64,000 nt of DNA from Thermoanaerobacterium xylanolyticum LX-11 (GTDB lineage: Bacteria > Bacillota > Thermoanaerobacteria > Thermoanaerobacterales > Thermoanaerobacteraceae). Both the position numbers and the translations under genes were made by a program. Below are positions 42,347 to 63,115 of the stretch, piece by piece; within the stretch, counting starts at the first letter, position 1; the number at the start of each line of letters is the position of its first letter. The stretch lies in NCBI RefSeq assembly GCF_000189775.2, contig NC_015555.1:1995001-2059000 (forward strand). The letters run 5' to 3'. Below the pieces are notes generated by a model. The model did no database searches, was not told the origin of the DNA, and saw nothing but the letters and a program-made list of their open reading frames with translations.

Positions 42347-43297
42347 TTATTTAAATGCCTCCGGATGCAAATCTTTTGCAATTTCTTCTAATCCTAAGAC
42401 AATTCTATTAGATGGCTTAGTGACAATGTCATCGTTGGAGATTATAAATATTTTGCCATCTTTCGCCGCTTTTGTATCCTTATAACCTGCCATATTTTTT
42501 ATTTCATTAGCGTTTGCAGCATGTGGTGATGTGATTATCACATCAGGATTTTTCTGTACTAGTTTCTCCATGCTGTACTGTGCCCATCCGTTTGCATCGC
42601 TGGCTACATTGTTTCCACCAGCCAATGTTATAAGCTCATCGATGAATGTTCCCTTGCCAGCCGTCCAGTTCCCATTTGTATCAACAACATAAAACACATT
42701 TACTTTCGGCAAATCCTTCACTTTATCATTGATCTCTTTAATTTTATCTTTCATGCTGCTTATTATTTCATTTCCCTTTTCTACATTGCCTGTTATCTCA
42801 CCTAATATCTTTATTGAATCATATATCTGGTTTATGTTTTGCGCTTCTAATACCACCACTGGTATGCCTGATTTCTCGATAGTCTCCATCTGGTCCTTCC
42901 CAGAAAGATTTGATGCAAAAACTATATCAGGTTTCTGAGCCATTATAGCTTCAATATTAGGCCCTTCATATCCTCCAACTTTCGCAACACTTTTTACCTC
43001 CGGCGGATAATCGTCGTAATTAGTAACACCAACAACATTTTTGCCAGCGCCAATTGCGTAAATCAGCTCGGTCGTTGATGGAGATAAGGATACGATCCTC
43101 TTAGGCTCCTTTTTTATCGTAACTTGCCTACCCATAAAATCAGTAATTTTCAATGGGAATGTATCCTTAACTTCCGTCTTCACAGAATTAGCATTAGTAG
43201 ATGCTTTTTCCTTTGTAGTTTGAGAACATGAAACAAGACTTAATGAAAGAACTGCTACTATGATGAAAACTACAATATTTTTAATCCACTTTTTCAC
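42347..43297 (-). CDS. btuF: Cobalamin/corrinoid-binding lipoprotein (BtuF type)
   Basis: This 316-residue lipoprotein has the lipobox LSLVSC (Cys24), a Ser/Thr/Asn linker and a PBP class III domain with PKRIVSLSPSTTELIYAIGAG and VGVTNYDDYPPEVK, which are typical for BtuF-like proteins. It is the first gene after the B12 riboswitch, so the import genes respond first to cobalamin shortage. Confidence 0.93.
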   Translation of the reverse strand: MKKWIKNIVVFIIVAVLSLSLVSCSQTTKEKASTNANSVKTEVKDTFPLKITDFMGRQVTIKKEPKRIVSLSPSTTELIYAIGAGKNVVGVTNYDDYPPEVKSVAKVGGYEGPNIEAIMAQKPDIVFASNLSGKDQMETIEKSGIPVVVLEAQNINQIYDSIKILGEITGNVEKGNEIISSMKDKIKEINDKVKDLPKVNVFYVVDTNGNWTAGKGTFIDELITLAGGNNVASDANGWAQYSMEKLVQKNPDVIITSPHAANANEIKNMAGYKDTKAAKDGKIFIISNDDIVTKPSNRIVLGLEEIAKDLHPEAFK

Positions 43298-43390: not shown

Positions 43391-43453
43391 CCATATTTTC
43401 TAAAGCAAATATGTATCACATTACCAACCTCCCCTCCGAAGGTGTTTTTCTCA

Positions 43454-43602
43454 TCTTAAGGCAGGTCTCCTGGCTTGCGATTCATCTTTAGCTCAACCTT
43501 CCCGGTTTCCCCAGTGGTTTTTTGAGCCTCATCATCGCTTACAGTAGCGGGGGCTGCAGCGGCTTCTCACCGCTTTCCCTATTAACCTTTCGGACCTTAA
43601 GA
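43454..43602 (-). promoter_or_regulatory. Cobalamin riboswitch
   Basis: TCTTAAGG and CCTTAAGA close the element. Inside are GGTTAATAGGGAA, GCTGCAGCCCCCGCTACTGT, CCACTGGG and AAGCCAGGAGACCTGCC, the conserved B12 aptamer parts in order. It precedes the btuFCD and cob genes. Confidence 0.97.
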
Positions 43603-43621
43603 CCATATTTAGTTTAACTAT

Positions 43622-43700: not shown

Positions 43701-43817
43701 TCATCCTGTATAAATTTTCACTACTGTAATATCCAAAATCACAAACATGATGAATACCGCTAAAATAATTGAAATCAAAATAAATGCCTTTAAGATAAAC
43801 TCCCTGTATTTTTTCAT
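43701..43817 (-). CDS. Small membrane peptide, 38 residues (candidate ECF target)
   Basis: The ATG at 43817 opens 38 codons: a basic start (MKKYREFILKAF) followed by one hydrophobic segment (ILISIILAVFIMFVIL) and a short polar tail ending KIYTG. GGAGG lies 11 bases upstream and GTGGG closer. About 85 bases upstream is the unusual promoter motif at 43896-43930, shared with two other places in the window. The pattern resembles the 36-residue peptide at 49761. I do not recognise a family. Confidence 0.5.
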   Translation of the reverse strand: MKKYREFILKAFILISIILAVFIMFVILDITVVKIYTG

Positions 43818-43895: not shown

Positions 43896-43930
43896 TATAT
43901 AGACAAATTTCTTCCTCATTTTGTTACAGT
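43896..43930 (-). promoter_or_regulatory. ECF-type promoter motif, copy B
   Basis: GACTGTAAC (TGTAAC at 43923-43928) and TTTGTCTATATA (GTCT at 43901-43904) are 18 bases apart. The box pattern is like ECF sigma promoters (TGTAAC/GTC). An A-tract/T-tract lies just upstream, as in copy C. Confidence 0.6.
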
Positions 43931-44742: not shown

Positions 44743-45226
44743 TCAATACATTTTTATATCAAAATTTTGCAGCAATAAGTCTTCTTCCCCGCCGTCCCAT
44801 TTTATTATCAATTTTATAGGCTTTTTGATTGAATCTAATATTTTCTGCCTTTCATCTGCATCTATTTGAGAGAGATTGGGTAGCCATGCAGATCTGCTAA
44901 CATCAATACAATTATCTTTTTTCTTTGTATTTGGTGCATTTAAATCTATTCTCTGTTGAATTGGTGTTCCAAAATACACAAGTCCAGATATTATATAAGG
45001 CTCAAGCCCTTTGTCAAGAAATACAACAATTTTAATGTTATTTAATTTTTCCTTACTAATGTTCTCAATTCTTATATTATAATTTAGTGGAGTAAATTCA
45101 TTTGAATCTTGTGTTTTTGGGATGTTTCCAGTAGAATCTAAACCATTCGTCTTTGTATTAGTATTTTTCCCAATCTCAATCGTTGTATTGATTTTAAAAT
45201 ATTTGCTTTTCGTCGTATAATTTAAA
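44743..45226 (-). pseudogene. 3' part of a membrane-anchored protein gene split by the insertion element
   Basis: About 160 codons remain, from LNYTTKSKYFKINTTIEIG to the stop. Features are an Asn/Thr-rich linker, YNIRIENISKEKLNNIKIVVFLDKG (beta-sandwich-like) and an acidic end. The apparent start MPNPS comes from the terminal repeat of the element, so it is not the true start. Joining this part to the fragment at 46975-47113, using one copy of the TTAAA duplication, gives ...DAPN-LNYTT... in frame and a protein of about 205 residues with a membrane anchor. No family was recognised. Confidence 0.75.
45222..45226. repeat. Target-site duplication, left copy (TTAAA)
   Basis: TTAAA here matches TTAAA at 46975-46979, directly outside the two inverted repeats. 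Confidence 0.75.
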
Positions 45227-45311
45227 CTTGGATTCGGCAAGTGAATTTATGAAATGCTCAAATAGAGCCATTTGAGGACTAAATTAAGTGAAAAATTTTT
45301 TACAAAAAATA

Positions 45312-45384
45312 TATGGAGATTCCCCTTTTTCTGATAAAATTTAAGTGTTAAACAAAAACATTAACAGAAAGGAGAATCTCCATA
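45312..45384 (+). promoter_or_regulatory. 11-bp inverted repeat around the transposase leader
   Basis: TATGGAGATTC (45312-45322) and GAATCTCCATA (45374-45384) are perfectly complementary and end two bases before the transposase ATG. A transcript reading in from outside would form this hairpin and bury the GGAG ribosome site, as known for some IS elements, while a transcript from an inner promoter would not. Confidence 0.6.
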
Positions 45385-45386
45385 GT

Positions 45387-46741
45387 ATGAGTTTAACACT
45401 TAATCTTACAAAAGAAAAGGGGTTTTCAAAATATATTTTGCCAGCAACTTTTGACAATTTTACAGTATCAAACAATGTAACTTTTACCTATATCCAAGCA
45501 TTTAAAGAAAAAATCGGCTTTAATAAAATTCTTTCAAGCATATTATCCTTTAAAAAAGCACCAAATGCTGTCTTCCAACCAGCCGAGATTATTGACTTTA
45601 TGATTGATTCTGTAATTCAAGGGAATACTCGCTTTCTTCACATGGACCAACTAAGATATGATAATGCATACACAGAAATTAAAGGACATAAAGTTCCCAG
45701 CGAAAAAGTATGCAGAGACTTAATTAAAGCCATGCCTGAAAGTTCTCTTGAAGAATTAAGACTTATTAACAAGACTTTGCTTTCCTTGCAATCTAAAGGA
45801 ACAAAACGTGAAGTCATTATGAATTTTGATGATACAGTTTGTACTATATTTGGAGAGCAGGAAGGTGCTTCAGTAGGTTATAATCCAAGGTACCATGGTC
45901 GACCATCTTTCAAAGAGAAAATCGGCATTATTGCTAATACTGATGAACTTGTTAATGTTACTCTTGAAGAAGGTAAACATCACACAAATCATGGTTTCTT
46001 AGATTTTGTAAAATCTTGCGAAGAACAGCTTCCTGAAAATTGGATAATTAAGCGAGTACGCGTTGACCGTGGAGCATTTGATTACGATAATATACTGTAT
46101 TTTGAATCTAAAGGTTATGAATATGTAATGAAAGCTAAAAATCAGGCATGGATCAGATGCTTTATAGACTACGTCAATCAAAGAGAACACCTTTATACTT
46201 GGACTGAAATAGATAAGACCTTTAGTGTAAATGAAATATATGCAAAAATGCCTAAATGGGATAAAGCACGCAGAATTGTGATTATACGCAAAAAACTGCC
46301 ACAGCCCAAAACAGGGCAGATTTGTATGGATATAGACGAATTCAAATATGAATATCAAGCTATAGTAACAAATATTGAGTACATGACACCTGAAGAGATA
46401 TTTCATGAATACAACCAACGCTGCGACATTGAAAACAAAATAGATGAACTAAAAGAAGGATTTGCTTTTTAAAAAACAGTCAAAGAAACAAATTTTGCAA
46501 CGAAATATTTTTGCTTATCAAAATGATTGCTTACAATCTCCACAATTGGTTCAAGAGGACTATCTTGCCAGAGTTTATGAAGCATCATGAGATAACCACA
46601 ATAAGGCGGATATTATATAGTGTACCTGGTAATCTTGTTGGGAAAGGGCGTTATAGGCATATACGTTACCCTAATAATCCGTTTCTTAAAACTGTGATAA
46701 CGTATATACGAAAAGCGCTAATGGTACTTTGCTTAACATAG
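45387..46741 (+). pseudogene. IS1380-family transposase, frameshifted
   Basis: The first frame (to a stop at 46472) gives about 361 residues with MNFDDTVCTIFGEQEGASVGYNP, YHGRPSFKEKIGI and the end motif HEYNQRCDIENKIDELKEGF, which identify the family and the DDE fold. The protein then continues in the -1 frame from about 46473 to 46741 (LIKMIAYNLHNWFKRTILP). The break falls at a run of five T and six A, so a one-base loss is most likely; programmed slippage is less likely. The joined product is about 450 residues, the usual length. I start at ATG 45387. Confidence 0.85.
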
Positions 46742-46958: not shown

Positions 46959-46974
46959 ACTTGCCGAATTCAAG

Positions 46975-47113
46975 TTAAATTAGGTGCATCGTTTGTCTGA
47001 TATAGATAAATCTGAAAATGACTTTTCTTATAGCTGTAGTAATCATAATATATAAAAAGACTCAATACAACTGCTGCTATTAAACATAAGATTATTATGC
47101 GCTTATTTTTTAT
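46975..47113 (-). pseudogene. 5' part of the split membrane-anchored protein gene
   Basis: About 46 codons remain: KNKR, a hydrophobic anchor (IIILCLIAAVVLSLFIYY), then SHFQIYLYQTNDAPNL, and the insertion follows. GGAGG lies seven bases before the first codon, which is ATA at 47113; this may be a decayed ATG. An in-frame ATG at 47131 lacks a good ribosome site. The right copy of TTAAA (46975-46979) is included. See the partner at 44743-45226. Confidence 0.7.
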
Positions 47114-47117
47114 AAAA

Positions 47118-47264
47118 TCACCTCCAACCATATTCTTCAGCTATCCTATCACCCATACGATAATTGTACTCAGCTTGTTGTGTAATCCAATTTTCATCAT
47201 AATAATGTGCTGCAGCATCAATATGAATGATGCGCCAATTTCTGTTAATGTTATTATAAACCAA
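47118..47264 (-). CDS. Possible 48-residue protein or gene remnant
   Basis: A TTG at 47264 opens 48 codons, with HIDAAAHYYDENWITQQAEYNYRMGDRIAEEYGWR at the end (quoted here only as key parts: HIDAAAHYY, WITQQAEYNY, EEYGWR). AAGG lies four bases ahead. The TGA stop overlaps the GGAGGTGA ribosome site of the next gene, which suggests real coupling. The His/Asp/Tyr-rich content is not membrane-like. It could be the tail of a longer lost gene. No family was recognised. Confidence 0.4.
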   Translation of the reverse strand: MVYNNINRNWRIIHIDAAAHYYDENWITQQAEYNYRMGDRIAEEYGWR

Positions 47265-47407: not shown

Positions 47408-48175
47408 CTAATTCATCAATTTTTTTATCTCCTCTTTTGACAACTCTGTAACCTCTGCTATTCTGTCAATGTCCATACCTTCTTTTAACAACTTCTTTGC
47501 TATTTTTATACTTTTTCCTTTTTCGCCTTTCTCAATGCCTTTTTCTATTATCATTTTGTATGTTTCTGATTCTTCAATCCTAAACATCCTCATCACCTCC
47601 GAAAAAACTTTCTCAATAATTTCTTTTTTAAAAATTACACCTGACAATAATTCAGCCTTAAATACAATGTCTTTCTTTTTGTTTATGTCTAATGGAATAT
47701 CTTTTATAGCCTCAACACATCTTTCCAGATATTTTTCTCCTTCTTCTTTCCTTCTATTTTTGTCCATCAACGGAAGCAGTGAATACAAATCATAATAGTC
47801 TGTCTTCAAAACATCAGTATATTTTATGTCGCCAACATTTATTATTCTGTATTTATAATCTAATGTGTTTTGTTCTCTAAAGTCGTAGCTTAAGCTATTT
47901 GCCATTTTTACATTATCTTTTCCTATATATAGGACTGACTATCTGATATGGTAAGAGATTATGCTTTTCCATTATCTCCATGGAATATCGTAACATCCTG
48001 TAAGGCATTTTTCCGTCATTTTCTGATTGAAATTCTATGTGCACAGCGACATTTCCTTTGTCAGTAGTACATTTGAATATCATGTCGCTGTCCCTTCTTT
48101 CAACTCTTGCAAATTCTATATTTAGTTCATCGATTTTTGTGTATTGAAGACCTAAAAAATAGCATCTTACCTTTA
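47408..48175 (-). pseudogene. Rpn-family PD-(D/E)XK nuclease, broken
   Basis: The intact tail (47408-47905, about 165 codons) has a helical C-terminus with EKGIEKGEKGKSIKIAKKLL, typical of Rpn/DUF4351 proteins that promote recombination. Upstream, in another frame (about 47920-48175), are the nuclease residues in AVHIEFQSENDGKMPYRMLRYSM. The frames join near 47925-47935 by a one-base shift, at ...PYQIV and YIGKDNVKM. The first 35 or so codons are missing; the remnant starts as FLGLQYTKIDELNIEFARVE. So it is truncated and frameshifted and probably inactive. Confidence 0.82.
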
Positions 48176-48377
48176 TTATATCATACGAATATTAAAAATA
48201 CAGATTATTGCCGCAATATTTTATAATGAGGTTTTGTAACAATACTGTAACCATATCTCAAAAACAGATTTTACTTACAAAAATTTTTGTTAAATATCTC
48301 ACATAAAAAGTTTTATGATATAATCTATTTGACATGCTAAAATTTTGTGGATTAGCATGGGCGAGGGAGGTAGGAAA
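48176..48377. other. Intergenic region ahead of the ECF sigma gene
   Basis: It holds two TGTAAC boxes (48234-48239 and 48244-48249 region) but no GTCT at the spacing seen in the three shared promoters. A CATGCTAA...TTAGCATG inverted repeat lies at about 48333-48359, just before the ribosome site, with TTGACA near 48330. I cannot choose a promoter with confidence. Confidence 0.4.
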
Positions 48378-48935
48378 TTGTTTATCTTATTTGACACAAT
48401 TATAGATGAATGCCAAAGAAAAAAAGTCGAAGATATATATGTAAATTACAGCAAAGATATGTTTAAAGTAGCATACAACATTTTAAACGACTATCAATTG
48501 GCACAAGATGCGGTCCAATCTGCTTTTATAAATATTATCAATTATATCGAAAAAATTTCTGATTATGACTGTAACAAAATAAGAGCATTAGTTGTTATTA
48601 TAGTTAGAAACATCTCAATAAATATGTACAATAAAATAAAGCGGCAAAAAAATTTATTTATTGAAGATGCGGATGAAATTTTCCATGATGACTCGGAGCC
48701 GTTTGACGAGAAGATAATAAATAATGACATTTTTAGAAGAGTATCTGAAAAAGTAAAGGAGCTAAAAACAGAGTACGCAGACATTATTTCTCTAAAATAC
48801 TACTACGGCTACTCTAATAAAGACATCGCAAATCTTTTAAACATCACAGAAGACAATGTAAGAGTAAGACTGTATCGCGCGCGGCAAAGCCTTAAAGATG
48901 CTTTATACCAGTATAAAGGAGATGTGGAAATATGA
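48378..48935 (+). CDS. ECF-type sigma-70 family RNA polymerase sigma factor
   Basis: This 185-residue sigma factor has region 2 (about 20-85; NYSKDMFKVAYNILNDYQLAQDAVQSAFINII) and region 4 (about 125-180; KYYYGYSNKDIANLLNITEDNVRVRLYRARQSL), with no regions 1 or 3. I choose a TTG at 48378, seven bases after GGGAGG; the longer reading runs through the ribosome site. The anti-sigma gene overlaps by four bases. Three shared ECF-like promoter motifs in the window (see findings) are candidate targets. The signal is unknown. Confidence 0.92.
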   Translation: MFILFDTIIDECQRKKVEDIYVNYSKDMFKVAYNILNDYQLAQDAVQSAFINIINYIEKISDYDCNKIRALVVIIVRNISINMYNKIKRQKNLFIEDADEIFHDDSEPFDEKIINNDIFRRVSEKVKELKTEYADIISLKYYYGYSNKDIANLLNITEDNVRVRLYRARQSLKDALYQYKGDVEI

Positions 48936-49684
48936 AAGACCTTTACAATGAAAAGCTAAAATCTGAAAGCAAAATATTTGAGGCATTGCTGGAATATGCA
49001 GGGGCTTGCCATGTAAACAACATAATTAATGACTTGGAAGAAGCCAATGGTGAAAAAATACCTTACCCTGAAGAATTAAGCATTAAAATTAGACAGATGT
49101 TAAGGCATCACAAAAGAAAAGAAGCAGTCAAAAAATTCTTCACATCGGCAAAAATGATCTTCCCAAAAGTCGCGATATTCTTCTTTGTGGTTTTTATTGG
49201 CTTCACTGTGGCGATGACAACTGTTTCTGCTTTTAGAGCTCGCGTCTTTAACCTCATAATTGAAATCAAAAAAGATTATACAGACATAAAATTAAAAGAA
49301 AACAATGAACCCAGTACGTCTTCTTCCACATCGCTTGTTCCATCCAACTGGGAAAATGAATATTATCTTTCATACGTGCCACATGGGTTCAAGATAAGTA
49401 AGGTAGAGTCACAGGAGGTAACCAAAATCATTCAATACACAAATGGCAAAGGCGATTTCATAATTTTCAGTCAAAGTTCCAATGAAAACACTGACATGAT
49501 GGTTGACACAGAAAATGCTATCACGCAAAAGATTGATATAAACGGCTATGAGGGCATCTTGATTCAAAAAAACGGTTTAAACACCATCGTATGGCGTAAA
49601 GACAACAACTTATTCTCCTTAATGTCGAAAATCGATAAGAACGAACTTATAAAAGCTGCCAATAGCATCAAACTGAAAAAATAA
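48932..49684 (+). CDS. DUF4367 anti-sigma factor, single-pass
   Basis: This 250-residue protein has a cytoplasmic N-terminus (about 1-75), one membrane segment (VAIFFFVVFIGFTVAMTTVSAF, about 77-98) and an outer DUF4367 domain (about 130-248) after a Ser/Thr linker. Such a layout is typical for anti-sigma factors that hold an ECF sigma and sense something at the envelope. It overlaps the sigma gene by ATGA. The zinc anti-sigma motif is not obvious. A motif A promoter and a small peptide gene follow. Confidence 0.85.
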   Translation: MKDLYNEKLKSESKIFEALLEYAGACHVNNIINDLEEANGEKIPYPEELSIKIRQMLRHHKRKEAVKKFFTSAKMIFPKVAIFFFVVFIGFTVAMTTVSAFRARVFNLIIEIKKDYTDIKLKENNEPSTSSSTSLVPSNWENEYYLSYVPHGFKISKVESQEVTKIIQYTNGKGDFIIFSQSSNENTDMMVDTENAITQKIDINGYEGILIQKNGLNTIVWRKDNNLFSLMSKIDKNELIKAANSIKLKK

Positions 49685-49693
49685 TTTATTTTA

Positions 49694-49727
49694 ACTGTAA
49701 CAAAATTAATGCTTATTTGTCTAATAT
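49694..49727 (+). promoter_or_regulatory. ECF-type promoter motif, copy A
   Basis: AACTGTAAC (TGTAAC at 49696-49701) and TTTGTCTAATATATA (GTCT at 49719-49722) with a 17-base spacer, just after the anti-sigma gene and 35 bases ahead of a small membrane peptide gene. Confidence 0.6.
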
Positions 49728-49760
49728 ATATGGAGAAAAAACTAACATAGAGGGGATTTA

Positions 49761-49871
49761 ATGTTGAAGAAGAATTTTATTAGAACATTTTTAATAGTCT
49801 TTTTTATCATAGTAGTAAACTATGCAATATTTTACGGCATATTTTCTCTGTATATGTCCATTCACCCATAA
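49761..49871 (+). CDS. Small membrane peptide, 36 residues (candidate ECF target)
   Basis: An ATG five bases after GAGGGG opens 36 codons: MLKKNFIRT, then one hydrophobic segment (FLIVFFIIVVNYAIFYGIF) and SLYMSIHP. It is the first gene after the anti-sigma gene and lies behind ECF motif A. It resembles the 38-residue peptide at 43701-43817 in plan (basic start, one membrane span, short tail). A pure chance ORF would rarely combine a strong ribosome site, a promoter and a clean span. No family was recognised. Confidence 0.6.
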   Translation: MLKKNFIRTFLIVFFIIVVNYAIFYGIFSLYMSIHP

Positions 49872-49872
49872 C

Positions 49873-49904
49873 AAAAAAGGAGTCTTGGTCTTCCAAGGCT
49901 CCTT
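49873..49904 (-). terminator. Terminator of the APC permease gene
   Basis: AAGGAGCCTTGG-AAGA-CCAAGACTCCTT followed by TTTTG on the minus strand. Confidence 0.85.
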
Positions 49905-62386: not shown

Positions 62387-62941
62387 TTATGGAAAGTACA
62401 CATTTCGCTTTAAATATATTTTTTTGCCCATTAATTCTACCACATTATCACCTAATTTCTTTACTGAAATATCATAAACATGATCTTTACGAAGTAAATT
62501 TTTAACAAGCAAAACACCTTTTATGATTTCTTTTTCCTGTCTTACAACAATTCCATAATCAGTAGTAGCGCCGTAATTTGATCTATAAACTATAACGGAG
62601 CTTGATTCAAACCTAATATTGTGAATTGGCATAAACGCCTCATTTACATTAAGAGTAATAGTAGCAAATAAAATAATGGCTGCAATTGTTGTACTTATCA
62701 ATATTAATATTATTGAAATCACACTATTCACTATCTTTGCAGAAATATGTTTAAATCTAAAGCCATTTATTAACAATATCAAAGGTATTATCTGAATACA
62801 CAAAGAAAAAATATCGTTTAATTTTAAAGACTTAAATCTTATAAAAGGATAAAAATAATCTAAATTCAATATCCATAAAACATAAATAGCCAATAGAACT
62901 ATATGGATAATATATTTGTTATTTCGAATTAAATTATTCAC
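62387..62941 (-). CDS. Membrane protein of unknown function (candidate ECF target)
   Basis: This roughly 184-residue protein has three membrane segments (about 10-28, 45-62 and 72-95) and a C-terminal outer part with NVNEAFMPIHNIRFESSSVIVYRSNYG. I recognise no family. I start with a GTG at 62941, six bases after AGGTG. ECF motif C lies about 145 bases upstream with no other gene between. It could be part of an envelope stress response, by inference. Confidence 0.7.
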   Translation of the reverse strand: MNNLIRNNKYIIHIVLLAIYVLWILNLDYFYPFIRFKSLKLNDIFSLCIQIIPLILLINGFRFKHISAKIVNSVISIILILISTTIAAIILFATITLNVNEAFMPIHNIRFESSSVIVYRSNYGATTDYGIVVRQEKEIIKGVLLVKNLLRKDHVYDISVKKLGDNVVELMGKKIYLKRNVYFP

Positions 62942-63082
62942 TAATATCACCTATCTTTTATATTTAAATCCAATATCATTCTTTCCTATCTAAAACAGAT
63001 GGAAAAATGCAATCACATCCTTTCCATGTTTGCAATATTTATCAATTGGACTAAATTTATCTTGCAACTTGCTCTCTCTCAA

Positions 63083-63115
63083 TATAAGACAAATTTCTAA
63101 GGAATTTGTTACAGT
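63083..63115 (-). promoter_or_regulatory. ECF-type promoter motif, copy C
   Basis: AACTGTAAC (TGTAAC at 63108-63113) and TTTGTCTTATA (GTCT at 63087-63090) with a 17-base spacer on the minus strand. Upstream AAAAAATTTTTATAAAAA closely matches copy B, and GAGAGAGAGC follows in the same place as CAGAGAGG in B. Confidence 0.6.

Follow-up and report, generated by a model that had tools for sequence, protein, structure and literature searches.

The window analysed here, a stretch of 64,000 nucleotides from Thermoanaerobacterium xylanolyticum LX-11 (contig NC_015555.1, positions 1,995,001 to 2,059,000 of the forward strand), contains a two-gene operon for an extracytoplasmic function (ECF) sigma factor and its putative anti-sigma factor and, directly behind it, an open reading frame (ORF) for a single-span membrane peptide of 36 amino acids, which is the subject of this report. 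The sigma gene (48345-48935, + strand) encodes 196 amino acids from the first possible start and shows the Pfam domains Sigma70_r2 and r4_2 as well as the TIGR02937 superfamily. The gene that follows it (48932-49684, +) encodes a protein of 250 amino acids with a DUF4367 domain (Pfam, E 3e-22), the only DUF4367 protein in the genome, and from its position and architecture we infer that it is the anti-sigma factor; judged by eye, its N-terminus is cytoplasmic, followed by one membrane span and an external DUF4367 domain. An AlphaFold prediction of this protein from 3 input sequences reached a predicted local distance difference test (pLDDT) score of 42.

The 36-codon ORF (49761-49871, +, stop codon included; translation MLKKNFIRTFLIVFFIIVVNYAIFYGIFSLYMSIHP) begins with an ATG 76 nucleotides downstream of the anti-sigma stop codon. 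An earlier note on this DNA had described it as an undescribed membrane peptide right behind the anti-sigma gene with a properly spaced GAGGGG, and both statements were borne out: the ribosome-binding site GAGGGG lies at 49750-49755 (+), 5 bases 5' of the ATG, and the highest hydropathy over 19 residues is 2.54 (residues 10-28). Among the 137 ORFs of 30-50 amino acids in the window that start with ATG, 2 combine hydrophobicity with a strong Shine-Dalgarno sequence, versus 0.125 in Markov-resampled sequence; the other one is a cysteine-rich ORF adjoining the FeoB gene. A structure model gave one continuous helix from residue 2 to residue 34 with a pLDDT of 95, which, computed from a single-sequence input, is weak evidence. 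The peptide has no family in Pfam, NCBIfam or PHROGs and no relative in the PDB by sequence, and literature searches found nothing on it or on DUF4367 anti-sigma factors. DUF4728 (20.1 bits, below the cut-off of 26.7) and PHROG 26666 (E 0.02, no clear match) were considered and rejected. Between the peptide and a convergent amino-acid permease gene the sequence and a terminator scan reveal a hairpin (49879-49902, no strand assigned) with its U-tract on the permease side.

Conservation was followed in nine Thermoanaerobacterium genomes, including that of the window (G000, a single contig of 2.53 Mb). All nine harbor the sigma/anti-sigma pair with the 36-residue ORF directly behind it, always with 36 codons, an identical ATG position, no indels in the ORF and an unchanged GAGGGG, whereas the flanking DNA is rich in indels. 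Between the two main clades the nonsynonymous divergence (dN) of the peptide is 0.13-0.19 and the synonymous divergence (dS) 1.05-2.35, which corresponds to a dN/dS of about 0.08-0.15; for G005 the ratio is 0.14-0.21 against the first clade and 0.4-0.5 against the second. In nearly all of these genomes stop codons interrupt both other sense frames. Invariant residues concentrate C-terminally (N20, F24-F28, L30, Y31, H35 and P36), and the conserved half follows the pattern N20...FYGIF[ST]LY..[IV]HP. The earlier note had proposed an alignment of the same locus in relatives as a check, and there the frame is kept 9/9 with a between-clade dN/dS of about 0.08-0.21. Judged by these substitutions the frame is under purifying selection within the genus, and the ORF is almost certainly a real, translated gene. 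It appears to be a property of the genus: a profile search recovered all nine copies; in 37 genomes of the class it gave none outside the genus, the best match there being no better than noise (E 0.006) and containing an internal stop; and a scan of GTDB contigs yielded three loci, every one from Thermoanaerobacterium.

The prediction that the peptide gene has an ECF-like promoter of its own also held. The promoter, TGTAACAAAATTAATGCTTATTTGTCTAATATA (49696-49728, +), has the -35 element TGTAAC at 49696-49701 and the -10 element GTCTAATA at 49719-49726, and reads TGTAAC-N17-GTCTA; the leader would be about 30 nucleotides long. The box is kept in all nine genomes, the -10 element being GTTTATA in two of them and GTATATA in G005. 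When such boxes were sought genome-wide by sequence pattern, with the reversed pattern as control, the strictest pattern (TGTAACAAAN{9,14}TTTGTCTA) gave 1-2 matches in 8 of the 9 genomes and none for the control; each match lies 5' of the 36-residue peptide or of a second peptide of 38 residues, and in G000 it occurs twice, once per peptide. A slightly looser pattern (TGTAACAAAN{9,14}TTTGTC) has three matches in the whole of G000, at 43902 (-), 49696 (+) and 63088 (-), all of them inside the window, where 0.00 were expected per window. Since all three boxes of a 2.53-Mb genome lie no farther than 15 kb from the sigma gene, this sigma factor probably reads them; the clustering is strong circumstantial evidence, and the 36-residue peptide gene in particular is very probably driven by the adjacent sigma factor.

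The sigma operon itself is preceded by an extended -10 promoter (TATGATATAATC) of the sigA type at approximately 48306-48324 (+), which reads TATGATATAAT and is conserved; the strip GTTAAATATCT...TATGATATAATC could be aligned in all nine genomes, and an ECF box in operon orientation is absent there. Because the operon promoter is sigA-like and the peptide has its own box, the peptide gene would be a separate output of the sigma factor; it appears to form a sigma-dependent transcription unit rather than the tail of the operon.

The 38-residue peptide (43704-43817, -; the ORF spans 43701-43817), also with a single predicted span, is present in 8 of the 9 genomes and is preceded by a matching ECF-type promoter (43902-43928, -). 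Its variable columns are distributed over the three codon positions as 7/2/15 (eight genomes), from which we conclude that this ORF, too, is under coding constraint. The two peptides have no evident sequence in common. Several genomes of the genus contain a 43-residue paralogue of the 38-residue peptide between the two peptide loci; in G006 and G005 (L060, L062) it reads MRKYKKFIS...VKIYTGQ and its promoter is apparently different. Behind the third box (63088-63113, -) the ORF listing places a protein of 187 amino acids (62387-62950, -), probably a membrane protein from hydrophobic spans judged by eye only, which has no Pfam or NCBIfam family. The interpretation of the earlier note stands in part: its suggestion that this sigma factor drives tiny membrane proteins is supported, the box preceding two tiny peptides and the probable membrane protein of 187 residues, and its idea that they are feedback or protective peptides is a hypothesis.

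Broader boxes (GTAACRN{13,16}TTGTYWWAT) precede exported proteins, GAF-domain regulators and a lipoprotein gene. They were rejected as a description of this sigma factor's regulon, since the reversed control, too, matched about 1-4 times in most genomes, and the boxes could belong to another sigma factor. Many ECF-type boxes of the genus (63088-63113 (-), loci L065, L083 and L090) share a conserved spacer with the inverted repeat ACAAATTCCTTAGAAATTTGT, which overlaps the promoter and could be an operator or be left over from a duplication.

What lies behind other DUF4367 anti-sigma genes was surveyed in 299 genomes of the phylum, from which the best loci were taken; 26 of these loci lie outside the genus. 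An ECF-type box is found within 150 nucleotides behind the anti-sigma gene in 8 of the 26, as compared with 0.38 expected from resampled sequence. In five of the eight (two of them closely related) the gene behind the box encodes a protein of about 90-150 amino acids that begins much like a signal peptide and matches no Pfam family; at the remaining boxed loci a first gene could not be clearly made out. G001 has a second sigma/anti-sigma pair, with the same layout of box and then gene. From the frequency of the box and from this second pair we conclude, by comparison of the loci, that the place behind a DUF4367 anti-sigma gene is a regular target-gene slot, in which Thermoanaerobacterium holds a bare membrane peptide.

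The surroundings of the peptides vary within the genus. In some genomes an ATP-binding cassette (ABC) transporter island lies between the two peptides, together with a GAF-domain regulator that is divergent and has an ECF-like box; G001 and G006 (L058-L061) carry the island, small exported proteins and the GAF-domain regulator beside the sigma gene, and one island protein of G001 comes near to TIGR01654 (bacteriocin-associated membrane protein), with 186.8 bits against a cut-off of 189.35. The island is absent from G000, G002 and G003, so the peptides are independent of it. G002 (L056, 5941-8414) has a second ECF-type sigma gene and a downstream protein of 653 amino acids beside the sigma gene, which are not in the other genomes listed. 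A gene for 211 amino acids (MAGGDFIKNK...), intact in other genomes of the genus, is split in the window into the parts 46970-47131 and 44743-45240, with a transposase-like gene (45345-46472) between them, and at 47408-48083 (-) two pieces in different frames represent a gene (Pfam Transposase_31, YhgA-like) that relatives have intact and that is apparently broken here. Adjoining the 38-residue peptide is a cobalamin riboswitch (43443-43614, -; Rfam RF00174, 124 bits), which precedes a gene for a substrate-binding lipoprotein (42347-43297).

The reading that we favour, with about an even chance of being right, is that the 36-residue peptide is a sigma-induced, single-span membrane effector of the response governed by this sigma factor. 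A signal acting on the external DUF4367 domain of the anti-sigma factor would free the sigma factor, which would then transcribe the peptide gene, as a monocistronic unit, from the ECF-type promoter in front of it. The peptide would insert so that the Lys/Arg end stays inside and the conserved C-terminal half faces the outer side, and would act there on an envelope protein, probably by binding, or on the membrane, alongside the 38-residue peptide. It would thus occupy the target slot that relatives give to small exported proteins. We prefer an output role because the sigma operon has no box, because two unrelated peptides share the box and because the slot of the relatives holds exported proteins. 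Some findings weigh against it. The genome encodes about ten further proteins that contain sigma region 4, a few of them ECF-type, and the specificity of the sigma factor is deduced from the clustering of the promoters. In the closest genome pairs the dN/dS of the peptide is 0.4-0.65, a value that stems from very few changes. A conserved helix face of the peptide was not significant (p about 0.15-0.47), and a partner-binding surface is therefore putative.

In the main alternative the peptide would feed back on its own regulator: it would bind the anti-sigma factor at its membrane span, or compete for the intramembrane protease that clears it, and so damp or sustain the response. The gene adjoins the anti-sigma gene in all nine genomes and has the box of the sigma factor, the peptide resembles MgrB (47 amino acids; PMC2789325) in size and topology, and the S2P protease of E. 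coli that cleaves anti-sigma factors also cuts small membrane proteins (PMC10470546). Feedback would, however, require neither a second, unrelated peptide under the same promoter nor the third one nearby in some genomes, homologous loci have exported proteins in the slot, and between the clades the peptide is 64-67% identical versus about 91-93% for the anti-sigma factor. By analogy with known systems such a role is conceivable, but we consider it rather unlikely.

The short, hydrophobic peptide with its basic N-terminus and stress-type promoter could also be a toxin-like molecule (type I or TisB-like) that depolarizes the membrane on stress. This is very unlikely to be correct, for there is no antisense RNA family, the only Rfam match being the cobalamin riboswitch; antisense promoter-like sites are at chance level; the leader is short and open with a free ribosome site; and a single fixed locus, universal in the genus, encodes a peptide whose C-terminal half is strongly conserved. 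The invariant HP end and the signal-peptide-like layout would fit the precursor of an exported signal or pheromone, whose C-terminal end would be freed outside the cell for the DUF4367 domain to sense, and homologous loci do hold exported proteins in the slot; but a signal-peptidase site of the AxA type was not recognized by eye, the hydrophobic stretch nearly reaches the end and the model predicts one continuous helix, which makes a precursor highly improbable. Related loci with an exported protein of similar N-terminus in the slot bring to mind a decayed exported protein of which the signal peptide remains, or else a non-coding leader. With the length fixed at 36 codons, purifying selection and a C-terminal end that is the most conserved part in the nine genomes, a remnant of this kind has next to no probability.

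Small membrane proteins often escape notice, and for most of them a regulator is not known; here one locus offers the regulator, the promoter box and a conserved frame, together with another peptide that is co-regulated. Tentatively, and with less than an even chance, the core regulon of this switch in the genus may be a set of unrelated single-helix membrane peptides, with a peptide of 36 residues having replaced the exported protein of the slot and controlling the anti-sigma factor, or the envelope, from its place in the membrane. This raises the question whether bare membrane helices are the response of an ECF sigma factor to envelope stress, and whether they also act back on its anti-sigma factor. 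The recurrent slot yields a simple rule, too: for many uncharacterised ECF sigma factors in Bacillota, the first target should be sought directly behind the DUF4367 anti-sigma gene.

Among known systems, MgrB is a membrane peptide of 47 amino acids that is induced by PhoP and inhibits PhoQ (PMC2789325). Like the peptide described here it is tiny, has a single span and is induced by a linked signalling system; the two differ in sequence, an MgrB match not being obtained in Pfam or NCBIfam, in that a sigma/anti-sigma pair here takes the place of the two-component system and in that feedback here is hypothetical. The toxins of the Hok/TisB type are comparable in size, hydrophobicity and stress-type control, whereas at our locus, one that is universal in the genus, an antisense RNA was not found and the C-terminal half of the peptide is conserved. 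For Tt-RpoE1 of Thermoanaerobacter tengcongensis the promoter tGTTACN16CGTC has been reported (PMC3397946). It belongs to an ECF sigma factor of a related thermophilic anaerobe and has a similar -35 element and a GTC-type -10 element; unlike there, in Thermoanaerobacterium the promoter of the sigma operon is sigA-like, and it is the targets that carry the box. The other DUF4367 loci in Bacillota share with ours the order of sigma factor, DUF4367 anti-sigma factor, ECF-type box and then a small exported or membrane-directed product, which is an exported protein of roughly 90-150 amino acids in the former and a membrane peptide of 36 in Thermoanaerobacterium.
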